Shown: positions 2 to 32,946 of the stretch, in pieces
Numbering within the stretch: position 1 is the stretch's first letter
How the letters are laid out: each line of letters begins with the position of its first letter
Made by a program: the position numbers and the translations under genes
Notes under the pieces: model-generated
What the model was told of the DNA's origin: nothing
What the model saw: only the letters and a program-made list of their open reading frames with translations
Databases searched by the model: none
From: Candidatus Aminicenantota bacterium
GTDB taxonomy: Bacteria; Acidobacteriota; Aminicenantia; UBA2199
Direction: 5' to 3'
Length of the DNA: 38,732 nt
Assembly (NCBI GenBank): GCA_020355945.1
Contig: CP070627.1
Span: 4,051,790 to 4,090,521 of the forward strand

Positions 2-3000
2 AAAATCATTGGGATGTTTGTCAATACATTGGCGCTGCGGATTTATCCCTCAGGGGAGAAGAAATTCACCGATTTCCTAGAAGAAGTAAAGGGAAAAACC
101 TTAAGAGCGTTCGAGAACCAGGACTACCAGTATGAAGACCTTGTAGAAGAGGTATCCGTAACACGGGATGCCAGCCGCAATCCACTTTTCGATACGATGT
201 TTGTATTACAAAATACCGGTATCCAATCACTAGAGATCCCTGCCTTGAAAGTGGTTCCCTATGAATATACAACTGAGACATCAAAATTCGACCTGACACT
301 AATTGGAGTGGAAGTAGAAGAAAAACTGGTATTTACATTTGAATACAGAACCGGCCTATTCAAAGACCGCACCATTGAACGGTTTATCACCTATTTTACC
401 AAACTTGTCAAGGCAGTACTTGAAAATAAACACCGGCAATTATCAGGAATTGAAATAATACCGGAAGCAGAAAGAAACCTGGTATTATATGAATTCAATT
501 CCACAGGAGTAGAATTCCCAAAAGATAAGACCATCAAACAATTGTTTGAAGAACAGGTAGAGAAGACACCGGATCATGTGGCCCTGGTAGGAAACGAAGA
601 AGGCGAGAAGGGTGGAAGGATAGATGGTAAGAAGGAAGGCATGCATCTTTCTTATTGGGAATTAAATCAAAGGTCCCATCAATTGACCCGTTTGCTGAAG
701 GAAAAAGAGGTCAAACCCGACACCATTGTAGGTATCATGATAGGGCGATCTGTGGAAATGATCGTTGGGATATTGGGAATATTGAAAGCCGGTGGAGCAT
801 ATTTACCAATCAATCCCGACTATCCGGAAGAACGAATTCACTATATGCTGGAAGACAGCGCTTCAAAGATATTGGTAACCACGCCAGATTTATCAAAGGA
901 AATCAACTTTGAAAAGGAAATTATATATTTATCGGACGCAATAAATCGCGCCCCTACACCTCACCCCCTGCAGTTGTCGGCGTGGGTTAAAGCACCTGTC
1001 GCCTCATTGGCCTACGTCATTTACACCTCCGGTTCCACCGGGAAACCCAAGGGCGTGATGGTGGAACACAGAAATGCGGTTAATGTGGTTACCTGGTTTG
1101 GCAGGACGCATTGTTTAGGGCCGCACATTCATGTATTGCAGATGTCAGACTATACCTTTGATGCCAGTGTTAATCAGATTTTCGGTACGTTGCTTCACGG
1201 TGCTGTTCTTTATGTTATCCACAAAGATCTGCTGCTGGACAGTGAGGTACTGCGTCAATATATTGAAACGCATCGCATTCATGTGTTGAATTTTATTCCC
1301 ATGATGTTGAATGAATTATTGAGTAATGGCCCGATGTTGAAGAGTATTCACGTGGTGTTGTCTGGAGGAGAACGTCTGGACAATGTGGTTAAGGATAATA
1401 TACTGGAAAAGGGTTATGTACTGTACAATCAATATGGTCCCACAGAAACCACCATTGATGCGTTGGTGGGATGTTGTACTTCCGGGCCGGTGACGTTGGG
1501 AACTCCGATATCTAATACCCGGTGTTACATATTTGATAAATATCAGAAGCTGGCGCCAGTGGGCGCGGCGGGAGAACTTTATATTGGAGGAGCAGGAGTG
1601 GCCAGGGGTTATCTGAATCGTCCGGAATTGACAGCAGAGAAATTTGGAAGAGCCGTCATTCGTCATTCGTCATTCGTGATTAGTAGTTCTTTGAAAACCA
1701 AAAACCGTTCTTCTAAGTTCTTCCCCAATCACCAATGTCCAATGACCAATGACAGGTTATACCGGACCGGTGACCTGGCTCGGTGGCTGGCAAACGGAGA
1801 AATTGAATTCCTGGGGCGAGTCGATCAACAGGTAAAGATTCGTGGATACCGTGTAGAATTGGGTGAAATCGAAAGTCACTTATTGAAACATAATGACATA
1901 AAAGAAGCAGTGGTCATAGATAAGGAAGAAGAGACCGGTACCCGTTACCTATGCGCCTATATCGTCAGTGGGAAGGGAATTGAGAAAAAACTTGGTGCTG
2001 ATGAATTAAAAAAATATCTATCCAAACGGCTTCCAGGCTACATGGTACCCGCTTATTTTATGCATGTAGAAAGAATTCCTTTAACATCCAATGGGAAAAT
2101 AGACCGAAAAGCATTGCCGGAGCCCCAATTGAAATCCAATCAAGAGTATAAGGCTTCGAGGGATGAATTAGAAGGAAAAATGGTAGATATCTGGTCGGAA
2201 ATTCTGGGTATTGAGAGGGAAAACCTGGGTATAGATACCAACTTCTTCGAAGCAGGGGGCCACTCCTTAAACGCAACCGTATTGGTTTCCAAAATACATA
2301 AAAAGTTAAATGTAAAAGTGTCGTTAGCAGAATTCTTTAAAAGGCCTGTAATAAGGGATTTGGCCGATTTCATAAAAGAAGTTGGGAAATATAGTAATTA
2401 TTGCTCCATTGAACCGGCCTCAAAAAAGGAATACTATGAACTATCATCATCTCAAAAGCGGATGTACCTTTTATGGCAGACAGATCCGAAAAATACTGTA
2501 TACAACACACTCAAAGTATTGATGGTGAAGGGGGAGTTGGATAAAGAAAAGTTGAAAATAACATTTAAAAAGCTTATAAAGAGGCATGAAAGCTTTAGAA
2601 CTTCGATATTGGATGTGAGCAATCGCTTTGCTCAAAAGATACACGATGAGGTGGATTTTGAGATTGAATATTATAATAGTAAAGAGGTTGAGGTTAAGGT
2701 TAAGGTTGTTGAGAAAAAGGAAGAACCTCCAACGTCACTACGCAGCCCGCAGCCCGCAGCAACTCTTATAAATTCTTTCATCCGCCCATTTGATTTGACA
2801 AAGGCACCGCTAATACGGGTGGGTTTGATAAAAATTGAGGAAAAGAAACATATCTTAATGATTGATATGCATCACATTATTAGCGATGGACTATCGCTGG
2901 ATTTAATCGTAAAGGAATTTGAAAACCTTTACAAAGGCAGAAAACTTCCAAAATTGTTACTTCAATACAAAGATTATGCGGAATGGCAAAATAGCGAAAA

Positions 3001-6000
3001 ACAAAAGCAAACCCTTAAAAAGATGGAAGAATACTGGTTAAAAGAGTTTGGCATTGAAGGAGAGATACCGGTGCTAAACATGCCTATAGATTATGTGAGA
3101 CCGGCGGTTCAAAGTTTTGAAGGAGACACCATGAACTTCGGGATATCGGTGGAAGATACCGGGGCACTAAGATCAGTTGCATTAGGGGATGGTTCCACCG
3201 CTACGATGTACATGGTATTACTGTCGATCTTCAATATTTTATTATCAAAGCTCAGCGGCCAGGAGGATATCGTCATGGGAACTCCCATTGCCGGGAGGAG
3301 GCACGCGGACTTAGAAAAGATAATCGGGATGTTTGTCAATACCCTGGCATTGAGACATTACCCCGAGGGAGAAAAAACCTTTAAGGAATTTCTAAAGGAG
3401 GTAAAAGAGCGTACATTGGAAGCCTTTGAGAACCAGGACTACCCGTTTGAAGACCTGGTGGAGAAGGTGGCGGTCACCAGGGATGCCAGCCGAAATCCGC
3501 TGTTTGATGTTTTGTTTGCGCTGCAAAATATCGGGGCGGTATCAGGGGTATCAACGGATTCCCACCGGGGTGAACCATTCCCGGTAGAAGTAGAAATACC
3601 GGGTTTAAAAATGGAGTACTATGACTACATAAATTCCACGTCGAAATTTGATTTGGCATTAATCGGGACAAATGCGGGTGAGCGACTGCTCTTTACATTT
3701 CAATACTGTACAAAATTGTTTAAAAAGAAAAGCATTGAACGATTCATCGACTATTTTAAGAAGATCGTCTCGTTAATTGTGAAAGAACCCGGTATGAAGT
3801 TAAGGGATATAGAGATAATATCGGGAGAAGAGAAGAGGCAGTTGTTATATGATTTTAACGATACAAAAGCCGACTATCCACAAGAGAAGACAATCCACGA
3901 GTTATTTGCAGAAGAGGTAGAGAAGACCCCGGACAAGATTGCTTTAACCGGGATAGAGCATGGAGCATGGAGCAGGGCGGGGAGTGTAGACCCGGGAATC
4001 AGTAACCTTCAATTAACTTACCGGCAATTAAACGAGAGATCCAACCAATTGGCGGGTGTATTAAGGGAAAAGGGGGTAATGCCCGAAGCCATCGTGGCCA
4101 TATTGTTGAAGCGTTCCCTGGAGATGATAATCGGGATTATGGGTGTATTGAAGGCAGGTGGAGCGTTTATTCCCCTTGATGTGGGAATCCCCCGTTGGCG
4201 GTTAAGCTGTATATTGAAAGACAGCGGTTGTAAAATGGTGTTGATTGATAAGAATAAGGATAAAGATAAAAAGGATGCCGCTGCCCCCGGGTTAGCCGGA
4301 GATATACCCACATCGATATCGATTTTGGCAGTTAGTAACCACCCGGAATTGACAGCCTCAGGTTCGAGAGAAGACCTTGAATCGGTGAATAGGCTGTGGG
4401 ATTTGGCCTGTGTACTGTATGAATCCGACGCCAGTGGATTTCCCCGCGGCATGATGGTTGAGCATCAGGGCCTGGTAAATTTAGTGAAGGGTATAAAAAG
4501 AGAATATACCGATGGCAGGCAGTGGTTGGAGGTATTATCTTCCCCTGTTTCTCTCCAGACATTTTTAAAAGAGCGGTCTATTTATAAATGTTATATCCTG
4601 GATTCTTACATCAATCCAGTACCCATGGGAACAGAAGGGGAAATTTATGTCGGGGGTATCGGCGTGTGCCGCGGTTATTTAAATCGTCCGGGATTAACCT
4701 GGGAAAAATTCATCCGGGACCCATTCGTTTCACCAATAATCACTGACCATTCTGATCATTCATCAATGACCCAGCTCCTGCACCGGACCGGAGATATGGG
4801 CAGGTATCTGGCGGATGGTCATATTGCTGTTACAGGCAGGAAAGATGACCAGTTAGAAATACAGGGCCGGTGTGTCCAACTGGGTGAAATCCGCTTCCAT
4901 ATCATGGCTTATGAAGGGATGAGAGATGCAGTGGTGGTGTTAGACAGAGATCAGGAAGGAGAGGAGGTTTTAAGGGCCTATTATGTCAATGTAAAATCCC
5001 CGGGGAGTATAGATGTTCATGAGTTAAAAGAATTTTTATCCGAGCGTTTACCCGCTTATATGATACCCATGAATTTTATTCAGTTAGAAGAGCTTCCCCT
5101 GACATCCACGGGTCATTTAGACCGCAGCGCGCTTCCGGTTCCCGGTTCTTTTGTTGGCCCTGGCAATGAAATAGAAAGAAAGCTGTCTGGTATCTGGAGT
5201 AAAATATTAGGAGTAGAAAAAGTGGGGGTCACTGCTGATTTTTTTCAATTGGGAGGCAACTCCATCAAGGCGTTACTGCTGGTGTCCGAGCTGAATGAAG
5301 TCTTTAATGTCAACCTTCTCATCACGCATATATTCGAATATACCACCATTGAAAAACTCTCAGCGTATTTAGCTGAATTGTCAGTGGTCTCCTCATCTCC
5401 TTCCCCTATCGAAAAAATAGAAAAACGAGATTATTATGACATATCGCATGCCCAAAGACGTTTGTGGGTATTGTGTCAATTTGAGGAGAGTTCCGTGGCT
5501 TATAATATGCCGGGGGCTTACATCCTCAAAGGCGCTTTGAATCGAGAAGCCTTTGGTAAAGCATTCGAGATGTTGGTGCGGCGCCATGAGAGTTTGCGCA
5601 CCGTTTTTATAACGATTGATGACGAGCCGAAACAGAGAATATTGGGAAAAGAGGAGATCGGGTTTAAGTTTAAAGAGATAGATTTAAGAAAAGATGCTGG
5701 CCGGGAAAAGAGAGCGAAGGCATTAGCCGACGAAGAGGCCGGACAGGTTTTCAATTTAGGTAAGGGACCGTTGATAAGTGCCAAATTGCTCCAGTTGGAG
5801 GATGAGAAGTACTTATTCTTATTAAATATGCATCATATTATTTCGGATGGTTGGTCAATGGGGGTCCTGGTCAAAGAGGTGTGTATGTTGTACAATGCCG
5901 CTCTTGATGGTAAGGAGAGTTCCTTGTTACCGTTAAAAATTCAATACAAAGATTTTTCAGCCTGGCAGAACAAGCAATTAGAGGGAGAAGGGTTAAACAA

Positions 6001-9000
6001 CCATCGAGGGTATTGGCAGGGTCGATTTAAAGGGGAGGTACCGGTATTGGAGCTTTCCTGTGATTATCCACGGCCAAAGGTAAAGACATACAATGGAGAC
6101 AGGTTGAGCTTTTTGCTGCCATCCGCTTTAAGCCGGGAAGCAATAGAATTAAGCCAGTGTCAGGGTACCAGTTTGTTTATTTTGCTGCTTGCAACGGTGA
6201 AGGCATTGTTATATCGTTATACCGGGCAGGAAGATCTAGTCATCGGTTCGCCCATATCGGGGAGGCAGCACCGTGACCTGGAGGAGCAGATCGGTTTTTA
6301 TGTCAATACACTTGCCCTGCGAACGGTATTTGAAGGGAGAGATAGTTTTGAAGTTTTGCTGGGTAAAGTGAAAGAGACGTCGTTAGCCGCTTATGACCAT
6401 GAGTTGTACCCCTTCGACCAGTTGGTGGATGACCTGGAATTGGCCCGTGATACGAGCCATTCCCCGCTGTTTGATGTGATGGTTAGCTTAAACCCGGAAA
6501 TCGGAGGTATTCCTGCGGAAGGGATAGAAGGAGTAACTATAGAAGGATATGAGGTAGATTCAAAAGTAAGCAAGTTTGATTTGCTCTTTGTTTTTACCCG
6601 GTTGCCAGAAGGAATATATGTGGCGCTCCAGTATAATACCGACCTGTTTAACAAAACTAGAATCCTGCGGATGGGCAGCCATTACCAGGAGTTACTTCGT
6701 TCCATCGTAAAAGATATTCGAACCCCCTTAAATGAATTGAATTATTTGTCGGATGAAGAGAAACATCAATTATTGGTTGAGTTTAACAATAACAAAATGA
6801 CATATTCCCAAGACAAGACCCTCCATGAATTATTTGAAGAGCAGGTGGAGAGAACACCGGATCATATTGCCGTGATGGGACCAATTTCGGATATACGAAC
6901 AATTTCAGGTGTACGGTCAACTCTCTACCTGTCATTATCCTATTTGCATTTAAATCGAAAATCCGATCAACTGGCAAAAGTATTGAGAAAAAAAGGGGTG
7001 AAACCCGGGAATATCGTCGGTATACTGCCAGAACGTTCCGTAGAGATGATCGTGGGAATCCTGGCTATATTAAAAGCAGGGGGTGCCTATTTACCCATTG
7101 ATCCCGAATATCCGGAAGAACGAATAAAATACATGCTGGCCGACAGCAATGCCAAAGTGCTGGTCACCACCAGCACTTTGGCTAAAGAAGGTGAGAAGGC
7201 AAGAATTGATATGTGGGAAGGTAAGAAGATTTTTTTAGAAGACTTTTCTGTGTCCTCTGTGGCAAAGAAACAACCCGCAATTCCCAACCCCCAACCCACA
7301 ACGAGTACTACCAGGCTCGCCTACGTCATTTACACCTCGGGTTCCACGGGGAAGCCTAAAGGCGTTTTGATACAACACATTTCAGTTGTTAATTTAGCCT
7401 TTTCTCAAAGGAGTTATTTTGATATCAGTGCGCATGATCGAATATTGCAATTTTCCTCCATATGCTTTGATGCCTCAGTGGAACAGATTTTTATCACTCT
7501 TTTTTGCGGGGCACTTCTGGTTCTCATCGATAAAGACACGCTTCTGCAAAAAGACAATTTTGAAGCGTTTATAGCGAGCCAGTCCATTACCCATCTTCAT
7601 GCAGTTCCTTCATTTTTGAATAGTATCACTCTGAAAGATTCGTATAAGTTAAAACGGATCATATCAGGGGGGGATGTTTGCCCAGTTCCATTGGCAAAAA
7701 AGTTGAGCTGTTATTGTGATTTTTATAATGAGTATGGACCTACAGAAACCACAGTAACTTCCATAGAGATGAAGTTTGAAGATGTAGATGAGAACCTCGT
7801 TCGTTTACCTATTGGCAAACCGTTAAGTAATACCACGGTTTACCTCTTTGACAGATGGTTGAAGCTTGTTCCTCTGGGAGTTAGAGGAGAATTGTACATT
7901 GGAGGAGAAGGGGTTGGTTTGGGATATTTAAATAAACCGGAATTGACAGCAGAAAGCTTTGTCTATTTATCGAATGGAGAACGTGTATACAGAACCGGAG
8001 ACGTGGCCCGTTGGCTGCCGGACGGCATTATCGAGTTCCTGGGGCGAGTGGACCACCAGGTAAAAATAAGAGGCTTCAGAATAGAATTGGGGGAAATTGA
8101 AAGTAAACTATTAGATATGAAGGATATAACAGGAGCAATCGTTGTGGAAAAAGAGGGTGAAGTAGTAGATAACAAATATCTCTGTGCCTATATCGTTTCA
8201 GAAATAGAACCGGAGATATCCGAACTGAGAGAGTATTTGTTAAAATATTTGCCTGACTACATGATACCATCGCATTTTATGCATCTAAAAAAGATCCCTT
8301 TAACGGTGAATAGGAAAGTAGACAGAGATGCATTGCCGAATCCGCAGTTTAAAGCAGGCAAAGAATATGCAGCACCAGGGGATGAGTTAGAAGAAGAGTT
8401 AGTCAAAATATGGTCTGAATTGCTTGGAATAGAAAAAGACATCATCAGCATCGATGCCAATTTCTTTGAATTGGGCGGTCATTCATTAAAGGCAACCATG
8501 CTGGCAGCAAAAATAAATAGAAAATTTGATATACTGGTACCCCTGGTAGAAATATATCAAAGACCTACTGTAAAAAAGCTTGGAGAGTATATTCGGAATG
8601 AAAACGTGGAAATGGGAAAGGGCATAGATAACCTGGTCCTGTTAAGAAAAGAAGGTGTCAGAGCAAATAATCTTTTCTTCATTCATGATGGAAGTGGAGA
8701 GGTAGAGGGGTACATTGAATTTTGTAATCACTTAACTAATGCATTTAACTGTTGGGGAATTAAAGCAGACAGCTTAAAAAATCACACTCCAGCGAATTTG
8801 ACTATAGAAGGACTTGCTAACAAATATATTGCCAGGATAAAAAGAGTTCAACCCCATGGGCCTTATTACATTGCCGGGTGGTCCCTGGGTGGTACGATCG
8901 CTTTTGAAATGGCCAGGCGATTGGAACAAATGAAGGAAGAAATTTTATTCCTGGCGTTAATTGATTCTCCGGGACCAGACAAACCTTTAAAAAAACATGT

Positions 9001-9604: not shown

Positions 9605-9606
9605 AA

Positions 9607-16562: not shown

Positions 16563-17297
16563 ATGAACCAATGTAATGGAGCAATAAAAATCACCAAAGC
16601 ATCTTTGGCTGAATTTATCGGTACTTTTTTTCTTGTCTTTGTCGGGTGCGGAGCCGTCACCGCCAATCAACTATTTAACGGAGCCGTAGGACATTTGGGC
16701 GTCTCCCTGGCCTTTGGTCTGGTTATTATGGTAATGATATACGCAGTGGGACATATCAGCGGTGCCCACTTTAACCCGGCAGTCACTATATCCTTTACTT
16801 TTAACCGACATTTCCCTCTGAAACTTGTCACACCCTATATTTTATCTCAATACCTGGGGGCTATTGCCGCCGCTTATGTTCTCTTTTTGACCTATAATCC
16901 TATGTTACAGGCTCAAAAACCAGGGGCTGTATTAAACCTTGGGGTGACCCAACCAGCCAATGATTCGCTGATCACAGGAATAATCTGGGAATTCCTATTG
17001 ACGTTTATTTTGATGTTTGTCATTACGGCAGTAGCCACAGATACACGGGCAGTAGGTAGTGCTGCGGGTATGTCTATTGGAGGTACGGTTTGCTTGTGCG
17101 CTTTATTCGCAGGACCCATTACCGGTGCATCAATGAACCCGGCGCGAAGCCTCGGACCTGCACTGGTGACCGGTCAGTGGGAATTCTTCCTGGTTTATCT
17201 CATTCCCCCTATACTGGGAGCGGTTCTAGCCGGCTATACCTACAATTTCTTATGCTGCCATGTGATTACCAGCAAAAAGATGTTTGAAATCGAATGA
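16563..17297 (+). CDS. MIP channel (aquaglyceroporin-like), probable metalloid or organoarsenical channel
   Basis: The protein has 244 residues and six predicted membrane segments, with both NPA boxes (HFNPAVTI and SMNPARSLGP). Aligned by hand to E. coli AqpZ (F43, H174, T183, R189), the aromatic/arginine filter reads F, A, A, R. The His that marks water-selective channels is Ala, and the adjacent Thr is also Ala. This gives a wider, less polar pore of the kind that can pass glycerol or As(OH)3. Aquaglyceroporins (AqpS) are known members of ars operons. It sits inside the arsenic array with AAAGGAGG upstream and is the only transporter-like gene in the window. It may admit arsenite as a substrate or release small organoarsenicals. 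The family call is certain; the solute is inferred. Confidence 0.9.
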   Translation: MNQCNGAIKITKASLAEFIGTFFLVFVGCGAVTANQLFNGAVGHLGVSLAFGLVIMVMIYAVGHISGAHFNPAVTISFTFNRHFPLKLVTPYILSQYLGAIAAAYVLFLTYNPMLQAQKPGAVLNLGVTQPANDSLITGIIWEFLLTFILMFVITAVATDTRAVGSAAGMSIGGTVCLCALFAGPITGASMNPARSLGPALVTGQWEFFLVYLIPPILGAVLAGYTYNFLCCHVITSKKMFEIE

Positions 17298-17330: not shown

Positions 17331-17338
17331 AAGGGAGG
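17331..17338 (+). promoter_or_regulatory. Ribosome binding site fixing the ACP start
   Basis: AAGGGAGG lies 6 nt before the ATG at 17345. The upstream in-frame TTG at 17318 would place this site within the coding sequence. Confidence 0.75.
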
Positions 17339-17344
17339 TTCAAG

Positions 17345-17599
17345 ATGTTTTTACAAAAAAGAAATTATGGAAACTTTATCATTAAAACATTAAAAGAAGT
17401 TACCTTTGAAAAAGGTATCACCAAAAATACCAATTTAAATACTGAGCTGGATATTGACTCTATCGCCTGGGTACAAATTATGTTCAAGATAGAAAAGGAA
17501 TTTGGGAATTTTCGTGACCTGGAAACCCTGATTAACGCAAAATATGAGACGGTATCAGACATGATATCTATTATTAAAAATCATTATGAAGCCCGGTAA
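17345..17599 (+). CDS. Free-standing acyl/peptidyl carrier protein
   Basis: The protein has 84 residues, the usual size for a discrete ACP. The 4'-phosphopantetheine site is Ser39 in ELDIDSIAWVQI, followed by the helix III pattern of ACPs (YETVSDMISIIKNHYEAR). It lies 24 nt upstream of an AMP ligase, which is the common arrangement for a ligase that loads its own carrier. It should carry a starter acid, an amino acid or the substrate of the neighbouring dehydratase-type proteins. Confidence 0.88.
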   Translation: MFLQKRNYGNFIIKTLKEVTFEKGITKNTNLNTELDIDSIAWVQIMFKIEKEFGNFRDLETLINAKYETVSDMISIIKNHYEAR

Positions 17600-17623
17600 G
17601 TAAGGAAAAACAGGGGAACACCC

Positions 17624-19255
17624 ATGAAAAACAATAGAAACGATAAGAATGGTGTTGGATTGTCGACTTTTTACGATGTTTTTAAAACGTTGGAATCCAA
17701 TAGAGAGAGTGCGATCCATTTTTTCTCCCGGGACAACAGTTCCAACTCCGGCCTGGCTTTGAAGGAAAGGAGAAAATTATTCACGGATATTCATGAGGAT
17801 ATACAAATATGCTACAATAATTTAGCAAAAATCGGCATTAACAATAATTCGGTAGTGGGTCTTAATATAGAGAATTCCTATTACTTTTTTGTGTGCGATT
17901 TTGCTCTCATTCTCATGGGTGCCACAACAGTCTTACACAGTAAAAATGACCCGGTGGAACAATTAAAGAATCGTATCGATTTATTTCACATCGATTACTT
18001 AATCAGCCGGGAGAATGTCCCGGCTGTACCGGAGGACATTTGCCCGGTGATCGAGCTTAATCAATTATTCGATACCGGTGCTGCCCGGGTTGAAATAAAA
18101 AAGCGATTATTGGAGAATCGGGATTTTTCAATCGTTTTTTCTTCCGGTACATCCGGGATACCCAAAGGCCTGAGTGTTTCCGAGCACGGTTCGATTGAAA
18201 GCGGAAAATTGTTCTTCAATTGGATGAATTTCTCCAATACCGACAAGTTTTTAATCTATTTGCCCCTAGCAAGTTATCAGCAGCGGTTCTTGATGTGGAG
18301 TTGTCTAATCAAAAACGTCGATATCGTCCTGGTTGACGATAAAACGCTTTTTAAGGGCCTGGAAACCTTCAAACCCACGATATTAATCGCCCCACCCAAT
18401 TTCTATTTTAACCTGTATCGAATCAATACCGGGTCTGCAATTAAACAATTCATTCGAGAATTGCTCCCTTATAATAAAAAGAGTAAATTATTAAAATTTA
18501 TCGCCAGAAGTTACACTTATAGGCCCTTATATAAAGCATTAGGTGGTAAAACCAGGTACTTAATCACCGGTATGGCCCCGGTGGATATTAAAATACTCGA
18601 ACATTTCGAAAAAGGATACCTGGATATTTATCAAATCTACGGACAAACGGAAATCGGGATGATTGCCTGTAATAAATTAGGTGCCAATAAACTGGGGACA
18701 GTGGGTAGACCGATTATCAAAATTCACCTTGCAGACGATGATGAAATTATTACCAACAGCAATTTTCCTACAATTAAGGCCTATTACCTGGAAAATGTTA
18801 AGAGAGTTGAATTGGGAAAGCAAATTCCTACAGGAGACGTTGGTAATATCGATCAAGATGGATATTTGAGCATTAAAGGAAGGAAAAATGAAACTATCAT
18901 TTTAAAAAGTGGAGTTAAAATTAATCCTGCATTAATTGAAAACAGAATAAAATCCAAAGTAAATATTGATGAGGTCATTATATTTAAATCCGACGGCAGC
19001 CACATGAAAACAGATTTAAATGTAACCATTTTAGCGAAATCACCTGGTGTTGACAATATTGAAATGAATAAAATTAAAGGAGTTATCCTGAACGAACCTG
19101 AAATTAAGCAAAACTCCGAAAAGGTTTCCATATTAACATATTCTATTAAAAAAGAAGATAGAAAAATAATGTACACGGAAAATAATAAGTTTAGTAGAGC
19201 ACGTACTTTAGAGCTTTTAAAGAGAAACTACCGGGAACTTAAACTTATTGGCTAG
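17624..19255 (+). CDS. AMP-forming acyl-CoA/ACP ligase (ANL superfamily)
   Basis: The protein has 543 residues. ANL motifs are FSSGTSGIPKG (about residues 171-181), YQIYGQTEIG (about 335-345), PTGDVGNIDQDGYL and IKGRKNETIILKSG. A Lys near the C-terminus (TENNKFSRART) fits the catalytic A10 position. The sequence is more like a fatty-acid or acyl ligase than an NRPS A domain, and it has no fused carrier. Its partner is almost certainly the ACP just upstream. It could supply an acyl starter to the NRPS. It could also be the activity that replaces the broken A domain of module 2, although nothing in the sequence proves that. The stop is followed within 20 nt by the next gene. Confidence 0.88.
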   Translation: MKNNRNDKNGVGLSTFYDVFKTLESNRESAIHFFSRDNSSNSGLALKERRKLFTDIHEDIQICYNNLAKIGINNNSVVGLNIENSYYFFVCDFALILMGATTVLHSKNDPVEQLKNRIDLFHIDYLISRENVPAVPEDICPVIELNQLFDTGAARVEIKKRLLENRDFSIVFSSGTSGIPKGLSVSEHGSIESGKLFFNWMNFSNTDKFLIYLPLASYQQRFLMWSCLIKNVDIVLVDDKTLFKGLETFKPTILIAPPNFYFNLYRINTGSAIKQFIRELLPYNKKSKLLKFIARSYTYRPLYKALGGKTRYLITGMAPVDIKILEHFEKGYLDIYQIYGQTEIGMIACNKLGANKLGTVGRPIIKIHLADDDEIITNSNFPTIKAYYLENVKRVELGKQIPTGDVGNIDQDGYLSIKGRKNETIILKSGVKINPALIENRIKSKVNIDEVIIFKSDGSHMKTDLNVTILAKSPGVDNIEMNKIKGVILNEPEIKQNSEKVSILTYSIKKEDRKIMYTENNKFSRARTLELLKRNYRELKLIG

Positions 19256-19256
19256 A

Positions 19257-19265
19257 GAGGAGGTG
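19257..19265 (+). promoter_or_regulatory. Ribosome binding site fixing the activator start
   Basis: GAGGAGGTG lies 6 nt before the ATG at 19272. The TTG at 19248 precedes this site and is unlikely to be the start. Confidence 0.8.
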
Positions 19266-19271
19266 AAGCAA

Positions 19272-20102
19272 ATGGAATTTTTTCTTGGAATTGATATCGG
19301 GTCATCATCAACCAAGGGAGTTATATTGGATATGGAAAAGAATATATTGGCAAAACGAGTGATTCGGACGAAACCGAAGCATAGCGATGGCGTCGAAATT
19401 ATCATTGAATCGATTATAAAAGATATCCGGTCAAGTCTTAATAGCTCTAACCGGGAGGTATCGAGAGAGGATATTAAGCATTGTATCGGAACAGGATATG
19501 GGAGAAATAATATAGACTGTGCGGATAAGGTTATTACTGAAATAACCTGTCATGCCAAAGGCGCTAACTATTATTTCCCTTACGCCAAGACTGTTATCGA
19601 TATCGGAGGACAGGATAGTAAAGTAATCCGTATAGATAATGAAGGAAAGGTTATCGATTTTGTTATGAATGATAAGTGTGCTGCAGGAACGGGAAGGTTC
19701 CTGGAAGCCGCATGCAAAATACTGAAAGTCCCCCTGGAAGAGTTTGGCAAGATTTCCAGGAGAGCAACTTCTCCATGTAAAATTAGCAGTACATGTGTTG
19801 TTTTTGCCGAATCTGAAATAATCTCGAAGCTTGCCGAGGGCGTTAAAAGCGAATCGATTGCTAAAGGTATACATCATGCAATGGTTTCCAGGTTATTAAG
19901 TATGGGAAAGCGCATAAGGATACATCCCCCGATTGTCTTTACCGGGGGGGTCGCAGAAAATGAGGGAATGGTTGAAGAAGTGGTCACCCTTTTGGGAATA
20001 GAAAAAACTGCCATGTGGGTTCCTGATGAACCAAAGATTATAGGGGCATTGGGGGCGGCGTTATTTGCATATGAAGAATGGAATGGAGGAACACAGAAAT
20101 GA
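19272..20102 (+). CDS. 2-hydroxyacyl-CoA dehydratase / benzoyl-CoA reductase type activator ATPase (HgdC/BcrA/D family)
   Basis: The protein has 276 residues, the normal size for the family. The ASKHA nucleotide fold shows in GIDIGSSSTKGVILD (residues 6-20), VIDIGGQDSKV and FTGGVAENEGM. Cys136 (NDKCAAGTGRF) and Cys175 (SSTCVVFAESE) are 39 residues apart, the same spacing as Cys127 and Cys166 that hold the inter-subunit [4Fe-4S] cluster in HgdC. The protein would hydrolyse ATP to push a low-potential electron into a partner dehydratase or reductase. The next two genes supply that partner. The 3' end overlaps the next start by 4 nt (ATGA at 20099-20102), so the two are translationally coupled. 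Confidence 0.92.
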   Translation: MEFFLGIDIGSSSTKGVILDMEKNILAKRVIRTKPKHSDGVEIIIESIIKDIRSSLNSSNREVSREDIKHCIGTGYGRNNIDCADKVITEITCHAKGANYYFPYAKTVIDIGGQDSKVIRIDNEGKVIDFVMNDKCAAGTGRFLEAACKILKVPLEEFGKISRRATSPCKISSTCVVFAESEIISKLAEGVKSESIAKGIHHAMVSRLLSMGKRIRIHPPIVFTGGVAENEGMVEEVVTLLGIEKTAMWVPDEPKIIGALGAALFAYEEWNGGTQK

Positions 20103-22126
20103 GGAAGCCGAAGAACAATAGTAAATTGTATATGGGAATAGACCTGGGATCGACATCCACAGATGGGGTTGTCCTGGATGATAAATATGAAATCGTTACA
20201 CATAAAGTTATCGATACGGAACCGAATCATAAAACCTGTACCGATAATCTCCTTGCATTGGTTTTCCAGGACCTGTCAAAGATCTATAATGAATACATAA
20301 CCCTGGAAGATATTCAATTTTGTATTGGGACAGGATATGGACGGGAAAATATTCATTGTGCAGGTAAAGTCATTAGCGAGATAAGTTGTCATGCAAAAGG
20401 TGTTCATTATTATTTCCCTTCTGCACGAACGGTTATCGATATGGGAGGACAGGACAGTAAAGTCATAAGTATCGATGATGGAGGGGAGATTATCGATTTT
20501 GTTATGAATGAGAAATGTGCTGCAGGAACGGGGCGGTTTTTAGAAGCTATCGGCGATATTTGCGAAGTCTCCCTGGATGATATGGGACCCATATCGCTAA
20601 AGGCTGAAACAGAAACAGTAATAAGTAGTATGTGCACGGTTTTTGCAGAATCGGAAGTGATATCCAAACTGGCGGAGGGAGAGGGAAAAGAATCGATTAT
20701 TAAGGGATTACATTCGGCAATTGCCTTCAGGGTTTTAGCTATGGGAAAGCGTATCGGGTTAAAAACCCCCGTTGCCTTTACCGGCGGTGTTGCAAAAAAT
20801 AGCGGTATGCTCCGGATGTTGATCGACAAAACCGGGTTTAATAAGAGAGATATATTGGTTCCACCCCATCCGCAAATCATCGGGGCCTTAGGTGCAGCAT
20901 TCTTTGCTCTCGAAGAAAGTAAAAAGCAGCGTACCAATAATGCTGCTCTAAATGGAAAGTCACTTTGGACACCAGGGAAAATAACCGCTGAATTTGAGAA
21001 AGAAATTCCCGTGAGAAACCATAAAAAAAATAGGAAAAATGTTGTCGGGTGGACGGATCTGGCGGTTCCTATCGAGTTACTATCTGCTGCGAATATTAAC
21101 CATACCCGGATAACCGGCGATATAGAGAAGGGGGCCAGCAGCGATCGTTATATGCGAACCTATTCTTGCGCATATATAAAGAATGTGATTTCCGCTTTAT
21201 TAGAAAAAAGTGAGAAGTATAATTTCCTGGATGGAGTGATTACTACCAATTGCTGCAATGCCACTGAAAAAATGTCTGACATTCTTGAGTATCAAAACAA
21301 CGCCCATACTAATACACATGAAAATTTATTCACTTATCCGTTAAATATTCCAAGGTTGGTAACCGATGAAGCAATTGATTTGATGAGAGCAAATATTGTC
21401 GCTCTAAAGATGTTCCTCGAAAAAAAGTACGATACCATCATTACCGAAGAAAGATTAAGGGAAACTTGCAAAGAATACAATAAAACAAAGATGTTGGTAA
21501 AAGAATATACAACTTTATTAGCCAGGAATAATTTCCCCGATACTGCGCGTTTAATCGGATTCCAGGTAGAACAGTTGTGGAACTTGATGGATACGTTCGA
21601 TGATTATACTGCCGATATCAAACATAAAATAGGCATCTTAAAGGAAATGCCCCCATTGGAAAAACAAGGACCGAATATTTTACTGGCAGGTGGCATTATC
21701 CCTGACAGGAAATTTTACGATCTTTTCAGCAATATTAAATGCCATATTGTTTATAATAATACGTCCAGTGGGAATAAATTTTCAGAAGCCCTGGTGGACC
21801 TTGATGAAAAAGATATTTATCGTGCGCTGGCAAAACGTTGCCTCTATTTAGGATATACCCCCAGGACAATGGACCCGGTTTCACGGATGGCCCGCATAAA
21901 ACGCCTGGTGGAAAGTTATGCTGTAGATGGTATTATTTTTAATATTACGAAATTTTGTGTGTATTATACATTCGAGGCCGTGCTGTTAAAGGAATATTGC
22001 CAACAATGGAACATCCCTTTATTAGTGATTGAGTCGGATTTTACCAGTAAGGGTATAGGACAGTTAAAAACCCGTATGGAAGCCTTTATCGAAACCTTTA
22101 AAAATAAAGGAGGACAGTATGTTTGA
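20099..22126 (+). CDS. Fusion of an activator ATPase and a 2-hydroxyacyl-CoA dehydratase-type (HgdB/BcrB/C) subunit
   Basis: The protein has 675 residues. Residues 10-290 are a second activator domain with Cys140 and Cys179, again 39 apart, and FTGGVAKNSGM. Its first phosphate loop reads GSTSTDG, with Asp where the upstream activator and most relatives have Lys. Residues from about 330 to the end form a dehydratase-type subunit with likely cluster Cys in RTYSCAYIK, TTNCCNAT and ITKFCVYYT, ending ESDFTSKGIGQLKTRMEAF. I chose ATG 20099 over 20078 because GGAGGA (20085-20090) lies between them and 20099 forms an ATGA overlap. Together with its neighbours this equals the four functions of a BcrABCD-type reductase spread over three genes. 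Confidence 0.9.
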   Translation: MRKPKNNSKLYMGIDLGSTSTDGVVLDDKYEIVTHKVIDTEPNHKTCTDNLLALVFQDLSKIYNEYITLEDIQFCIGTGYGRENIHCAGKVISEISCHAKGVHYYFPSARTVIDMGGQDSKVISIDDGGEIIDFVMNEKCAAGTGRFLEAIGDICEVSLDDMGPISLKAETETVISSMCTVFAESEVISKLAEGEGKESIIKGLHSAIAFRVLAMGKRIGLKTPVAFTGGVAKNSGMLRMLIDKTGFNKRDILVPPHPQIIGALGAAFFALEESKKQRTNNAALNGKSLWTPGKITAEFEKEIPVRNHKKNRKNVVGWTDLAVPIELLSAANINHTRITGDIEKGASSDRYMRTYSCAYIKNVISALLEKSEKYNFLDGVITTNCCNATEKMSDILEYQNNAHTNTHENLFTYPLNIPRLVTDEAIDLMRANIVALKMFLEKKYDTIITEERLRETCKEYNKTKMLVKEYTTLLARNNFPDTARLIGFQVEQLWNLMDTFDDYTADIKHKIGILKEMPPLEKQGPNILLAGGIIPDRKFYDLFSNIKCHIVYNNTSSGNKFSEALVDLDEKDIYRALAKRCLYLGYTPRTMDPVSRMARIKRLVESYAVDGIIFNITKFCVYYTFEAVLLKEYCQQWNIPLLVIESDFTSKGIGQLKTRMEAFIETFKNKGGQYV

Positions 22127-23396
22127 AATTCACCATAAAGAACAAGACACGATAAGGATTGATGATGTGAATAATCCGCTTTGCCAGGGCATCAACCGGA
22201 TGAAGTTAATTATGAAATATACCAAAATCGAAGGCTTTAGAGATATGTTAAACCTAAATTACTTCGAGGGTCCCAGCAGTTTTCGTAAATATTATGAATC
22301 GGATAAAAAAGTACTTGCCAATTGTGTGGTTCCCAAAGAGATATTTTATATGTTGGGAGTAGATATGCTCTATTTGGAACAGGTAGCCGTACTTGTGGCC
22401 ATGTCTTCGATGCACAGGGAAATGGTTGGAAAAGCGAGAACAATCGTTCCCAGCAGTACGTACTGTACCATTCACCAGGCAACTTTAGGTGCCATAGATA
22501 GTAATTACTTCCCCTTACCGGATGTTTTCGTGTCGCCAAGCTTTGCCTGTGAAGAGGCGATTGTTTTACCTTCTTATTTAAGTAAGAAATACAAGAAAAC
22601 GATTTTTCATATCGATTGTCCCCACAGCGTGGATGAAGCGGCGGAAAAGTACCTGGCCCACCAACTGCATCGATGTGTTTTGAACTTAGCCGATTTTTTC
22701 AAAATCCATCTTAAACAGGAACGTATTGAAGAAACGATCCATTATGCGAACCAAGCCAGGAAATGGTGGTTAAAATTCCAGGCCTTGAGACCTTCCTTGA
22801 AAAAGAATATTTTGGGTATAAATTTGCCCACTATTATGTATGGGCTTTTAATCCAGAGTAAGTTCGGACTTCCCCAAACGGTTGAAATCGTCAAAAAGCT
22901 TTACAAAGTTTTAAAGAAAGAAGTAGACGAATCCAATGACCATACCGAGCCGGTAAATTCTCCACGGATCTTATGGTTACATATGCTGCCTTTGCATACC
23001 GCCTCCCTTTTAATGCTGCTGAAATATTTAAATCTAAATATTGTCGCAGACGAATATTCGCAGATTACCTGGGATGAATTAGACCCTGCCAAACCCTGGA
23101 GAAGTTTGGCTCGCAAATATATGCAATGTATTGCCTACGGCAGTGTAAAGAAGCGATTGAAGTCTTTGGCTAAATTAATCGAGCGGAACGCCGTTGATGC
23201 AATCATCGAGTTGTGTCATCCCGGGTGTAAACCGGTCTCCGGTCAATCTCTCTTGGTTGCGGATTATCTAAAAACCCAGGATATTCCACATTTATCAATT
23301 GAAGCGGATCTTATCGATCCGGACAATTTTTCGATAGAGCAGATAAGAACGAGAATAGAAGCTTTTGTCGAGATGTTGAATGCAAGAGGAATATAA
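22119..23396 (+). CDS. 2-hydroxyacyl-CoA dehydratase-type second subunit (HgdA/B, BcrB/C family)
   Basis: The protein has 425 residues and overlaps the preceding gene by 8 nt behind AAAGGAGG. Cys residues in PSSTYCTIHQA, SPSFACEEA, HIDCPHS and IIELCHPGCKPVSG occupy places where family members hold [4Fe-4S] or double-cubane clusters. The C-terminal block LSIEADLIDPDNFSIEQIRTR matches the family ending (xE.D..d....qi.tR.eAF). It probably forms a heterodimer with the dehydratase half of the upstream fusion. The substrate may be a CoA or ACP thioester made by the nearby ligase. Members of this superfamily also include double-cubane proteins that reduce small inorganic molecules, so thioester chemistry is not certain. 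Confidence 0.88.
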   Translation: MFEIHHKEQDTIRIDDVNNPLCQGINRMKLIMKYTKIEGFRDMLNLNYFEGPSSFRKYYESDKKVLANCVVPKEIFYMLGVDMLYLEQVAVLVAMSSMHREMVGKARTIVPSSTYCTIHQATLGAIDSNYFPLPDVFVSPSFACEEAIVLPSYLSKKYKKTIFHIDCPHSVDEAAEKYLAHQLHRCVLNLADFFKIHLKQERIEETIHYANQARKWWLKFQALRPSLKKNILGINLPTIMYGLLIQSKFGLPQTVEIVKKLYKVLKKEVDESNDHTEPVNSPRILWLHMLPLHTASLLMLLKYLNLNIVADEYSQITWDELDPAKPWRSLARKYMQCIAYGSVKKRLKSLAKLIERNAVDAIIELCHPGCKPVSGQSLLVADYLKTQDIPHLSIEADLIDPDNFSIEQIRTRIEAFVEMLNARGI

Positions 23397-23436
23397 AAAA
23401 TGATTTTTTTAAAAAAAATAAAAATAAAAACCGCCG

Positions 23437-23472
23437 ACTCACACAGACAAACAATGTCTCTGAATGTTTGTG
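23437..23472 (+). repeat. Two alternative small hairpins upstream of the PhpK-like gene
   Basis: In the 95-nt gap, AGACA and TGTCT can pair around AACAA, or ACAAACA and TGTTTGT can pair around an 11-nt loop. The two use overlapping bases. No T-run follows. The rest of the gap is A/T-rich sequence in which I see nothing else. Confidence 0.35.
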
Positions 23473-23480
23473 GTTAAAAA

Positions 23481-23487
23481 GAGGAGG
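23481..23487 (+). promoter_or_regulatory. Ribosome binding site fixing the PhpK-like start
   Basis: GAGGAGG lies 4 nt before the ATG at 23492. The TTG at 23468 precedes the site. Confidence 0.75.
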
Positions 23488-23491
23488 AATC

Positions 23492-25141
23492 ATGAAAAAG
23501 AAAGTCGACTGTTTCTTGATCGGTCATAATGAGATGCAATTTGAGGATTATGAGAGGAGCATCAGGATAATGGGTGTCAATTCCGGGGCGTACCGGGACT
23601 TAAATATGAATTTTATTCGCAGTAATAATAAACTCTACTCTGCCTCAGATATTTTCAATGAACTTTGCTGCAATGGAAACGGATCGTCGTCCTCAGATTC
23701 GATCCGGCCGAAACCGGTAACGATGGGAAGTTCTTTCAGCGCCACCGTGGCCTACTTGGGGACTTATTTATATCGAAGAGGCCTCAACTTCGATTATGTG
23801 AGCTCTTTCCAGGATGAAAAGGAATACCTGGCAGAAAAGCTGGCCCAAGAGGATATACTCACCATTGCCATCACCACAACATTTTATGTCTCTTCCCTGC
23901 CGATTCTTGAAATAATGGAATTTATAAAAAAATATAACCGGGATGCTAAAATCATAGTGGGTGGACCCTTTGTCTCTGCCCAGGTACGCAGCCGGGAGCC
24001 AAAAGGCTTACAATCTGTTTTGAGATCCATACGAGCCGATTTTTATGTCAACAGTTCCCAGGGCGAAGCCACCCTGGTGAAGCTCATCCGGGCATTAAAA
24101 GAAGGAGGGGATATCGATAAAATAAATAATCTATATTATATGAACGATGAAGGCTATGTGTCCACCCCAGTTTTAAAAGAAGACAACCCTTTATCTGAAA
24201 ATATGGTCAAGTGGGACCTGTTTGCCGATAGAGTAGACGATTATGTCATGGTCAGGACTTCAAGGTCCTGTCCATTTGCCTGCTCGTTTTGCGGCTTCCC
24301 CCAGCATGCCGGCAAATACCAGACCGCAAATTTAAAAGCTGTAGAGGAGGAATTAAACCTGCTGGATCAAATCGAATCACTCAGGCATGTGGATTTTGTC
24401 GATGACACCTTTAATGTTCCCCCCGAAAGATTTAAAGAAATTGTCAGGATGATTATCAAAAATAGATATAAATTCTTATGGCATTCTCAATTTAGATGTC
24501 AATATGCCGACAGGGAGATGGTGGAGTTAATGAAAGAAAGCGGCTGTAAAGGTGTTTTTTTGGGAATCGAGTCGGGAAATAATCAAATCCTGAAAAATAT
24601 GAATAAAGCCGTTACCGTTGAAAAATACCTTAAGGGCATTGAGTTATTAAAAGAATACGGCATCTTGACATTCGGCTGTTTTATCGTGGGATTTCCCGGT
24701 GAAACCGATGAAACCATCCGGGATACGTTTAACTTCATAGAAGACAGTGGTTTGGATTTTTTCCGTACGCAGTTGTGGTTCTGCGATCCCATCACCCCTA
24801 TCTGGGAGCAAAAAGAAAAATATGATATTCAAGGTGCGCATTTTAAGTGGTCTCATGCCACCATGGATTTTCGTCGAGGATGCGATTTCGTCGAGCAAAG
24901 TTTCTTATCGATAAAAAATTCAACCTGGGTTCCCCAATATAATTTTGAATTTGATGCCCTCTTTCATTTAATGAATCGAGGGATGACCCAGGATCAGGTC
25001 AAACTTTTTTTAAAAGGTTTTAACAGCGGGATAAGGGAAAAATTAACAGACCCATCCCAAAAGGAGGCCGGTTCCAGGGTATTAGAAACGATAAAGAAAG
25101 CCTGCGGCCAATGTAAAGAGATGGAGGTATGTGAAAAATGA
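23492..25141 (+). CDS. PhpK-like cobalamin radical SAM enzyme (possible P/As- or C-methyltransferase)
   Basis: The protein has 549 residues. The N-terminus (KKKVDCFLIGHNEMQFEDYE, SGAYRDLNMNF), the B12-binding-type middle (AKIIVGGPFVS, YVNSSQGEATLVK) and the radical SAM motif CPFACSFC (260-267) followed by GFPQHAGKYQTA match what I remember of proteins annotated as the PhpK family. PhpK methylates the phosphorus of an N-acetylated demethylphosphinothricin intermediate in phosphinothricin-tripeptide pathways. PhpK-like proteins also occur beside NRPS genes with no phosphorus chemistry, so the name does not prove the substrate. A C-terminal CGQCKEMEVC adds further Cys. The stop overlaps the next start (ATGA at 25138-25141). 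In an arsenic context, As-methylation is an attractive guess. Confidence 0.78.
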   Translation: MKKKVDCFLIGHNEMQFEDYERSIRIMGVNSGAYRDLNMNFIRSNNKLYSASDIFNELCCNGNGSSSSDSIRPKPVTMGSSFSATVAYLGTYLYRRGLNFDYVSSFQDEKEYLAEKLAQEDILTIAITTTFYVSSLPILEIMEFIKKYNRDAKIIVGGPFVSAQVRSREPKGLQSVLRSIRADFYVNSSQGEATLVKLIRALKEGGDIDKINNLYYMNDEGYVSTPVLKEDNPLSENMVKWDLFADRVDDYVMVRTSRSCPFACSFCGFPQHAGKYQTANLKAVEEELNLLDQIESLRHVDFVDDTFNVPPERFKEIVRMIIKNRYKFLWHSQFRCQYADREMVELMKESGCKGVFLGIESGNNQILKNMNKAVTVEKYLKGIELLKEYGILTFGCFIVGFPGETDETIRDTFNFIEDSGLDFFRTQLWFCDPITPIWEQKEKYDIQGAHFKWSHATMDFRRGCDFVEQSFLSIKNSTWVPQYNFEFDALFHLMNRGMTQDQVKLFLKGFNSGIREKLTDPSQKEAGSRVLETIKKACGQCKEMEVCEK

Positions 25142-26130
25142 TTCATTTGTTTAAAACTTTATTCTCAAAAAAATCTGAACCCGGAAGGAATTTGGATTTC
25201 AAAATAATAGATGCACACGTTCATATCCCGTCTGATAGGTATTTACCCCACTCATTTAATGCACCAATTATTGATAATTTATATTCCGCCACCATAAAGT
25301 ACGCACCAACTATAAAACGGAAGACCATCGAAGAAAAATACAAAAAGAATTTGTCCGATCATGAATGCGATCACCTGGTAGAAGAAATGAATGAGGCCGG
25401 TGTAGAGAAAACAATTTTACTTCTCCCTGATTTTACTTTTCAGCTGGAAGACATGCAGTATGATATCGATGAAATGATCGCTATGCATACCCGCGTTTTA
25501 GACAAGTATCCCGGTCGATTTTATTTGTTTGCAGGAATAGACCCACGTTGGAATGAAAAGGGCTTAAAAATTTTCTGTAAATACCTGGAAAAGAGGAAAA
25601 TTCATGGTTTAAAGGTATATCCTCCATGTGGCTATTACCCGAATGATGAACTCTTAAAGCCATATTATGAACTGTGTTCTGAAAATAAGCTCCCCGTAAT
25701 TATTCATACCGGCCCCACATCTCCCATATTTAGGAGTAAATTCTCTGAAATTAGATATATCGACGAAATTGCATATGAATATCCATATGTAAATTTTATT
25801 CTTGCCCACGGCGGGGTAAATAATGTTGATGACGCTGTACTACTTTGCGCATTCCGCCCCAATGTGTACCTGGACATCAGTGGGTTCCTGGCCTCCTTCG
25901 ATCCTTCCGGACCTATAAACGCTCTCCGGGCTTTATTCAAGCGAAAAATCAATCATAAAATTATTTTTGGCACGGATTGGCCGATTTTGGGGTTAAAAAA
26001 TACCTATTCAAATATTGTTGATAAATTAAAAGATCCCCGAAACGGAGCGATAAATTCATTAACTGATCTTGAAAAAAAAATGATATTAAGAGAAAATATT
26101 CTTAATTTAATAGGACCCGCAGTAAATTAA
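25138..26130 (+). CDS. Amidohydrolase-2-type metal-dependent hydrolase
   Basis: The protein has 330 residues in a TIM-barrel amidohydrolase pattern: HxH at His27/His29 (IDAHVHIP), then HGLKVYPPCGYYP, VIIHTGP, FILAHGG and FGTDWP. All expected metal or acid residues are present, so it should be an active hydrolase or decarboxylase. It is translationally coupled to the PhpK-like gene. It might remove an N-acetyl protecting group or cleave an amide or lactone of the product. If the GNAT domain of the triple fusion protects an amino acid by acetylation, a late deacetylase would be needed and this is a candidate. The substrate cannot be read from sequence. Confidence 0.85.
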   Translation: MIHLFKTLFSKKSEPGRNLDFKIIDAHVHIPSDRYLPHSFNAPIIDNLYSATIKYAPTIKRKTIEEKYKKNLSDHECDHLVEEMNEAGVEKTILLLPDFTFQLEDMQYDIDEMIAMHTRVLDKYPGRFYLFAGIDPRWNEKGLKIFCKYLEKRKIHGLKVYPPCGYYPNDELLKPYYELCSENKLPVIIHTGPTSPIFRSKFSEIRYIDEIAYEYPYVNFILAHGGVNNVDDAVLLCAFRPNVYLDISGFLASFDPSGPINALRALFKRKINHKIIFGTDWPILGLKNTYSNIVDKLKDPRNGAINSLTDLEKKMILRENILNLIGPAVN

Positions 26131-26155
26131 AAAAATTCAATCAGGAGGAAAAACT

Positions 26156-26497
26156 ATGAACAAGCTTGAAGAATTAACAAAACAAAGGAAGAAAGCTCAC
26201 AGTAAATTTTTAAAATTCAAATCCAGGGTTTATAATTTATTTATCGAATTGGAAGAAGCCGCTTATTCCGATAGAGCACTTACTTTAAAAACGAAAGTGC
26301 TTATCGGCATTGGTATCTCGGTGGTTAAGGATTGTTTATCCTGTATGCAGTGGCATATTGAAGAAGCTGCCAAATGCGGAGCCACGGCAGAAGAAGTATT
26401 TGAGGCAATTGAGGTCGGTATAAAGATGGGTGGTGCACCGGCAGTTGTGTCTGCCAGGTTCGCTCTTGAAGTTATGGAAGAAGTTTACAAGATTTAA
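26156..26497 (+). CDS. AhpD-like / carboxymuconolactone decarboxylase-family small protein
   Basis: The protein has 113 residues, with an AGGAGG site 8 nt before the ATG. The CMD-family signature is complete: Cys60-x-x-Cys63 followed by His67 (VKDCLSCMQWHIEEA), then GATAEEVFEAIEVGIKMGG. Such proteins act as thiol-disulfide or peroxide reductases. I recall AhpD-like proteins annotated next to arsenosugar-type radical SAM loci, but cannot confirm that here. It could keep As(III)-thiol chemistry reduced. It is the last gene before base composition changes, so I take it as the right end of the array. Confidence 0.88.
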   Translation: MNKLEELTKQRKKAHSKFLKFKSRVYNLFIELEEAAYSDRALTLKTKVLIGIGISVVKDCLSCMQWHIEEAAKCGATAEEVFEAIEVGIKMGGAPAVVSARFALEVMEEVYKI

Positions 26498-32944: not shown

Positions 32945-32946
32945 TC

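Follow-up and report, generated by a model that had tools for sequence, protein, structure and literature searches.

A candidate biosynthetic gene cluster with a fused GNAT-ArsM-ArsL protein and a nonribosomal peptide synthetase in Candidatus Aminicenantota

The stretch of DNA analyzed here, referred to as the window (38,732 nt of contig CP070627.1, assembly GCA_020355945.1, from a Candidatus Aminicenantota bacterium), was found to carry an array of 15 genes in which an 838-residue fusion of GNAT, ArsM and ArsL domains lies a short distance behind a nonribosomal peptide synthetase (NRPS) on the same strand. An arsenic-containing peptide is a likely product because this arsinothricin-type fusion is packed so closely with the NRPS, and we put at roughly 0.6 the probability that the array is a biosynthetic cluster in which the fusion makes an arsinothricin-type amino acid and the co-directional NRPS builds a peptide from it. 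The arsenic reading of the cluster is strong, as judged from the protein sequences. An earlier sequence-only reading had proposed an arsenic counterpart of a phosphinothricin-peptide pathway for the same genes; its observations were confirmed and its interpretation was partly supported, with the phosphinothricin parallel being weaker than the arsenic reading. Only a small number of organoarsenical natural products have been described from bacteria, and those named in the available part of a review are methylated arsenicals, oxo-arsenosugars, arsinothricin and bisenarsan (PMC12159101).

The fusion consists of a GNAT domain (residues 1 to ~150), an ArsM domain (~155–417) and an ArsL half (~420–838), and its previously noted GNAT-ArsM-radical S-adenosylmethionine (SAM) architecture was borne out by parts matching ArsN2, PRK11873 and NF040542 in that order. 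Against NF040542, the model for arsinothricin ArsL, the ArsL half scores 507.3 bits (cut-off 450). The radical SAM motif CX3CX2C is located at residues 604–611 (CHHTCKFC) and is kept in 11/11 fusions, namely the window protein and the ten homologues described below. All 11 also carry a C-terminal RCC[LV]RC tail (RCCVRC in the window), compared with RCCLKC in 4/4 ArsL proteins of annotated arsinothricin-type loci. The ArsM part scores 326 bits against the arsenite methyltransferase model PRK11873 (cut-off 263) and 163.5 bits against the arsinothricin ArsM model NF040538, whose cut-off of 500 is not reached; Cys212, Cys300 and Cys350, which are invariant in 11/11 fusions, align with Cys residues of the ArsM chain 5evj. 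A structure prediction for the fusion (mean pLDDT 65.4, below 50 in the ArsL tail) gave ArsM structures as best fold matches.

In a tree of 36 ArsL-like sequences, the 11 fusion halves group as a single clade (support 100/100), which is joined, again at 100/100, with the four ArsL proteins from arsinothricin-type loci and is separate from 21 CUAEP-type or similar proteins. Long branches meet at this joining, which is to be taken with care, and the model scores concur with it. The radical SAM domain is thereby placed within the arsenic clade and not outside it, and the arsenic-carbon chemistry put forward earlier agrees with both the NF040542 score and this grouping. In Burkholderia gladioli, ArsL alone yields hydroxyarsinothricin, and ArsL with ArsM yields arsinothricin, the pair being sufficient in Escherichia coli according to the available part of the report (PMC8552651). 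It is very probable, from family scores and tree position, that the fusion makes an arsenic-carbon bond as this ArsL/ArsM pair does, in a single chain, and the ArsL half is predicted to transfer aminocarboxypropyl from SAM to As(III).

With the fusion as query, 5.8 billion protein clusters were searched (7996 candidates scored, 1130 hits), and ten other full-length fusions were identified among the best 120 hits. These share 69–79% identity with the window protein and are the only ones of the best 120 to end in RCCx[KR]C; the other 110 cover half of the query or less. GNAT-ArsM proteins without ArsL, some of them named ArsN2, rank below the ten fusions (e.g., P0012, P0019, and P0042). Such proteins, known for instance from Longimicrobiales, share the N-terminal half of the fusion at 38–46% identity (28 aligned) but differ from it in having no ArsL domain. 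A scan of contigs found 524 stretches encoding a relative of the fusion, of which 80 loci were retained; no match listed for these goes past query residue 451, so that most of the ArsL half is not covered in any of them. Among 396 Acidobacteriota genomes an ArsL-like match was obtained in 62 at E ≤ 1e-60, with none above the cut-off, and in 38 genomes of a class other than the one considered below no full-length match to the fusion was present among the matches listed.

The gene set on one strand, with the short gaps or overlaps noted earlier, was fully recovered: the 15 genes all lie on the plus strand and span positions 2–26497, with the NRPS first and a carboxymuconolactone decarboxylase (CMD)/AhpD protein last. 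The 14 intergenic gaps range from -8 to +95 bp, with starts picked by Shine-Dalgarno (SD) sequences, and the arrangement is not due to chance. The NRPS is separated from the KAS-III-like gene by 2 bp, from which it is 23 bp to the DUF5714 gene and a further 20 bp to the fusion. The domain scans covered 27 window proteins, which is the scope of all statements on window gene content made here. The features are as follows, with condensation (C), adenylation (A), thiolation (T) and thioesterase (TE) domains of the NRPS abbreviated.

2..9604, + strand: NRPS, 5' end cut by the window start; partial C, A1-T1, C2-A2 (degenerate)-T2, C3-A3-T3-TE (Pfam, motifs, A-domain alignment)
9607..10581, + strand (ORF 9514-10581; start by SD): KAS-III-like protein (Pfam, alignment to 2ebd)
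10605..11294, + strand: DUF5714 Cys-rich protein, weakly MbdU-like (Pfam, NCBIfam, SD start)
11315..13831, + strand: trifunctional GNAT-ArsM-ArsL fusion, as predicted, 838 aa (NCBIfam, tree, 11-fusion alignment, PDB ArsM matches)
13902..15080, + strand: degenerate ArsM-like domain with Cys-tail domain (QDCC...SCCC) (NCBIfam, alignment to arsinothricin locus)
15126..16487, + strand: B12-binding radical SAM protein, HpnR/BchE-like (Pfam, NCBIfam)
16563..17297, + strand: MIP channel, predicted As(III) channel (Pfam, NCBIfam, Priestia-locus alignment)
17345..17599, + strand: free-standing acyl carrier protein (ACP) (Pfam, NCBIfam, SD start)
17624..19255, + strand: AMP-forming acyl ligase, likely loading the carrier protein (Pfam, NCBIfam)
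19272..20102, + strand: 2-hydroxyacyl-CoA dehydratase/benzoyl-CoA reductase-type activase (BcrAD_BadFG) (Pfam, NCBIfam, SD start)
20099..22126, + strand: activase fused to an HGD-D dehydratase/reductase subunit (Pfam, NCBIfam)
22119..23396, + strand: second HGD-D dehydratase/reductase subunit (Pfam, NCBIfam)
23492..25141, + strand (ORF 23468-25141): PhpK-family cobalamin-type radical SAM protein (NCBIfam TIGR04479)
25138..26130, + strand: Amidohydrolase-2 family protein, with a 4-bp overlap with the PhpK-like gene (Pfam)
26156..26497, + strand: CMD/AhpD-like protein (Pfam, NCBIfam)

The gene following the fusion encodes a protein whose residues 263–391 share 43.8% identity over 130 aa (E 1e-36) with the product, annotated as hypothetical, of a gene lying between arsL and arsM on a plasmid of Pseudomonas amygdali, while its residues 66–309 share 26% with the ArsM of that locus. 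Pfam gives no hit for the window protein at E ≤ 0.001, and the methyltransferase motifs in it are eroded, with LGSGAG of ArsM appearing as LGGKNK and SNCVINL as a stretch without Cys. Its earlier description as an ArsM-like Cys-tail protein holds for the tail, given the P. amygdali homologue, but less so for the likeness to ArsM, given these motifs and a score of 84.8 bits against NF040538 (cut-off 500). A non-catalytic, Cys-rich arsenic-binding carrier or scaffold is predicted. The MIP channel, present as described earlier together with the ACP and ligase (Pfam), shares 48% identity with its Priestia-locus counterpart and 36% with the one from the Pantoea locus and is predicted to carry As(III). 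Apart from this channel no permease, and with it no candidate for ArsQ, was seen among the proteins scanned, the region upstream of the window lying outside the scan. The CMD protein exceeds the cut-off for the general AhpD domain (31.5 vs. 27.8 bits), and, ranked by E-value, its top NCBIfam match (35.6 bits, cut-off 510) is to the AhpD portion of a model for an ArsM-AhpD selenoprotein.

The NRPS with its TE was correctly recognized in the sequence-only reading, to which it is to be added that its 5' end is cut by the window start and that A2 is degenerate. Motifs A3, A4, A5, and A10 are intact in domains A1 and A3, as are the TE motifs. Three stretches of 44, 30, and 42 alignment columns, which contain motifs A4 and A5 in A1 and A3, are missing from domain A2; its A3 motif is broken (YESDASGFPRG), and His replaces the Lys of motif A10. 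This adenylation domain is predicted to be dead and, as it has no substrate pocket, module 2 would be skipped or loaded in trans. A search for NRPS homologues by way of the degenerate A2 region returned generic long NRPSs as the best 120 of 2498 hits and is uninformative on conservation. Another degenerate adenylation domain resembling A2, with a broken A3 motif and no GPTE motif, was observed in a PhpK-bearing NRPS cluster of an Acidobacteriota genome (G398, L143 14794–18015).

The four dehydratase-type functions reported earlier correspond to two activase domains (PF01869) and two HGD-D subunits (PF06050), though on three ORFs only. By family assignment they are a 2-hydroxyacyl-CoA dehydratase/benzoyl-CoA reductase-type system. 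No NCBIfam equivalog was above cut-off for the HGD-D subunits, and in a comparison of the activase-HGD-D fusion with 93 genomes of one Acidobacteriota class at E ≤ 1e-60 only the activase part was matched, in six of them. The KAS-III-like protein, when aligned to 2ebd, retains the Cys of the KAS III triad and has Gln and His in place of His and Asn; because the Cys is kept and the other two are replaced, acyl transfer is suggested rather than decarboxylative condensation. The DUF5714 protein reaches 141.5 bits against MbdU (cut-off 600). We infer that the product of the acyl set is an acyl unit, dehydrated or reduced, that is bound to the carrier protein.

Beyond gene content, gene order, family scores and tree position, the pathway would proceed along the following lines. 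Arsenite would enter via the MIP channel and be bound by proteins rich in Cys, for example the degenerate ArsM-like protein with the Cys tail. With its [4Fe-4S] cluster the ArsL half would cleave SAM and pass the 3-amino-3-carboxypropyl group on to As(III), the product being hydroxyarsinothricin, in line with the proposal for ArsL of B. gladioli. The fused ArsM domain would methylate the arsenic to give arsinothricin, which the fused GNAT domain may N-acetylate, either for self-protection or as a pathway intermediate. The NRPS would condense the arsenical with other residues, bypassing module 2 or having it charged in trans, and the TE would free the peptide. The ACP, ligase and HGD dehydratase set would likely contribute an acyl unit in modified form, and methylation would fall to the two cobalamin-type radical SAM enzymes. 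There is an even chance that this is the first nonribosomal peptide pathway with an arsenic-bearing building block, in which a methylated, possibly N-acetylated arsinothricin-type unit is turned into a peptide antibiotic.

Both cobalamin-type radical SAM genes named in the sequence-only reading are present, but only the product of 23468-25141 reaches an NCBIfam family cut-off, scoring 620.3 bits against TIGR04479 (PhpK; cut-off 600) with a B12-binding Pfam score of 30.9, just under the cut-off of 32.1. The product of 15126-16487 is HpnR-like at 208.5 bits, far under the cut-off of 650. Three more PhpK-family proteins (P0130, P0146, and P0168 at 620.4, 655.2, and 619.2 bits, respectively) were found on a contig of the same size as that of the window (9,131,798 bases); with P0121, at least four are listed for a contig of this size, which represents an expansion. 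Among 93 genomes of one Acidobacteriota class, PhpK was matched at E ≤ 1e-80 in only two, G398 and G402. The PhpK-like proteins there adjoin NRPS genes (694.2 and 583.7 bits in G398, 599.4 in G402; two of the three are just under 600), and ArsL was not found in either genome at E ≤ 1e-60. PEP (phosphoenolpyruvate) mutase was above cut-off in 0/4 large genomes of the class, these two included. Among 396 genomes of the phylum, PhpK was matched at E ≤ 1e-140 in two (G336 and G031), both proteins being 44% identical; the former genome has an NRPS condensation domain beside the gene, whereas the 4.6 kb of sequence available for the latter contain no NRPS gene. In a tree of 29 sequences, the window protein and eight relatives (74–81% identity) form a clade (86/97) to which P0130 is sister. 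Two of the eight are on contigs equal in size to fusion contigs, P0124 pairing with fusion P0005 (131,218 bp) and P0125 with P0010 (34,379 bp). As a separate observation, G398 encodes PhpK-family proteins with C-terminal condensation-domain-like pieces (L142 15736–18123 and L143 3489–5714; below the Pfam cut-off), which adjoin NRPS genes and a CmlA-type hydroxylase.

The PhpK label is non-specific because the family is multicopy on a same-sized contig and stands beside NRPS genes where ArsL was not found. It does not discriminate here between methylation of phosphorus, arsenic or carbon, and it was rejected as evidence for an arsenic analogue of phosphinothricin. Class B radical SAM methyltransferases act on carbon and on phosphorus, as stated in the available part of PMC7277169. 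The non-specificity of the label removes the PhpK argument from the phosphinothricin parallel drawn in the sequence-only reading. The pathway to the phosphinothricin tripeptide (bialaphos) involves an NRPS, an N-acetyltransferase and a PhpK-family protein, and the window resembles it in its NRPS with TE, its N-acetyltransferase-like GNAT domain and its PhpK score above cut-off. A strict arsenic counterpart, with an N-acetylated arsenic amino acid, three residues and arsenic methylation by the PhpK-like enzyme, is nevertheless improbable, since an ArsM domain is already there for the methylation, A2 is degenerate, and no PEP-mutase-type family, the mark of a phosphinate context with a C-P scaffold, was detected among the proteins scanned; the scaffold in the window would instead come from SAM by ArsL. 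A different division of the array, in which the fusion, the Cys-tail protein and the MIP channel detoxify arsenic to a harmless organoarsenical beside an unrelated, arsenic-free peptide cluster (NRPS, ligase, dehydratase, radical SAM), draws support from the ArsL-free GNAT-ArsM proteins that fill the homologue list under the ten fusions, from the PhpK-family enzymes that adjoin NRPS genes in genomes with no ArsL detected, and from arsinothricin itself, which by the available account needs no NRPS (PMC8552651). We consider it unlikely, as the arsenic genes lie inside the array, with the NRPS, KAS-III-like and DUF5714 genes close upstream and the genes from ligase to CMD downstream on one strand, and as no ars efflux or regulator gene was identified among the 27 proteins scanned. 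Production of a lipid or acyl organoarsenical, with ACP, ligase, KAS-III-like protein and dehydratases making a chain on an arsenic headgroup and the NRPS minor or separate, would fit the shared location of these genes and the precedent of bisenarsan, described in the part of PMC12159101 available as an acylated organoarsenical. It is very improbable given the altered KAS-III triad, the large NRPS at the head of the array and the lack of any polyketide synthase (PKS) or chain-elongation set among the scanned proteins.

Several observations count against a peptide built from an arsinothricin-type amino acid, the reading we prefer. It is the operon structure that makes use of the arsenic amino acid by the NRPS reasonably probable, and the pocket residues read by hand, DANNVSQIDK for A1 and DAEHISEVTK for A3 (at what we take to be the GrsA-numbered positions), match no assignable code. 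Among the 119 other NRPS hits listed (of 2498), none is on a contig matching any fusion contig in size. Co-occurrence of the fusion with PhpK-like genes, which the sequence-only reading had proposed as a check along with the NRPS, was seen by equal contig size, a crude test, for only 2/10 fusions, while the NRPS search was uninformative. ArsL was found in 0 of the 93 genomes of one class at E ≤ 1e-60, a search with no match anywhere, although the query did give matches, none above cut-off, in 62 of the 396 Acidobacteriota genomes. The GNAT domain, nearest to ArsN2 (NF040501), scores 105.8 bits, below the cut-off of 125, and ArsN1 was ruled out (the best local match to an arsinothricin-locus ArsN1 being 49 aa, E 0.54), which leaves the N-acetylation parallel weak. 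The Cys-tail protein has a counterpart in 1/4 arsinothricin-type loci. The CMD protein was ruled out as an arsinothricin-locus homologue, having no match to the CMD of Priestia or Alicyclobacillus, the two such loci with one. Neither an exporter nor an ArsR regulator occurs among the proteins scanned.

The arsQML locus of B. gladioli GSRB05 and the loci with RCCLKC-tailed ArsL in Priestia, Alicyclobacillus, P. amygdali and Pantoea plasmids share with the window an ArsL of the same clade and an ArsM, some of them also a MIP channel and that of P. amygdali a Cys-tail protein. The window differs from them in having ArsL, ArsM and GNAT in one polypeptide, in showing no ArsQ, and in adding an NRPS, an ACP/ligase pair, the HGD dehydratase set and two cobalamin-type radical SAM genes. 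The bisenarsan (bsn) cluster of Streptomyces is likewise an organoarsenical secondary-metabolite cluster; in the available part of its description the arsenic-carbon bond is proposed to form without SAM enzymes and a PKS is used (PMC12159101), in contrast to the radical SAM ArsL and NRPS of the window. In line with the sequence-only reading, no description of such an ArsL and NRPS cluster was found in the open-access literature searched (most subscription papers and all bioRxiv preprints being outside its scope). If the proposal is true, the placing of an arsinothricin-type synthase within an NRPS operon would amount to a new way of making peptide antibiotics that carry an arsenic warhead, and ArsL-clade enzymes would be extended to Candidatus Aminicenantes. 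With GNAT, ArsM and ArsL in a single chain, one gene is enough for testing the pathway in E. coli.

Downstream of the array, positions 26574–27904 encode a QueG/reductive-dehalogenase-like iron-sulfur protein and a DVU_1556-like methyltransferase at 53–54% G+C, compared with 39.6% in the cluster preceding this pair and 38% in the propeller gene following it. Because base composition shifts there, ~26.5 kb may be the cluster edge. A terminator scan of the window found 24 against 18.6 expected and did not resolve the operon borders. About 2.7 kb past the cluster, a plus-strand run of asd, aspartokinase, O-acetylhomoserine sulfhydrylase, metX-like and metW genes (29176–34708) represents a methionine route. 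Methionine feeds SAM, the donor for ArsL, ArsM and the radical SAM enzymes; the proximity of this run to the cluster may be coincidence. Taxonomic placement of the window from its MetY and pyrimidine phosphorylase proteins gave an ambiguous position within Acidobacteriota. Among annotated plasmid ArsL loci, an ATP-grasp protein is encoded near ArsL in 3/4 (L129 2729–3952, L130 2430–3662, and L132 7560–8762), with a GTP-binding protein in the same three. On account of this neighbour, ATP-grasp ligation may already yield a peptide or amide at some loci of the arsinothricin type.

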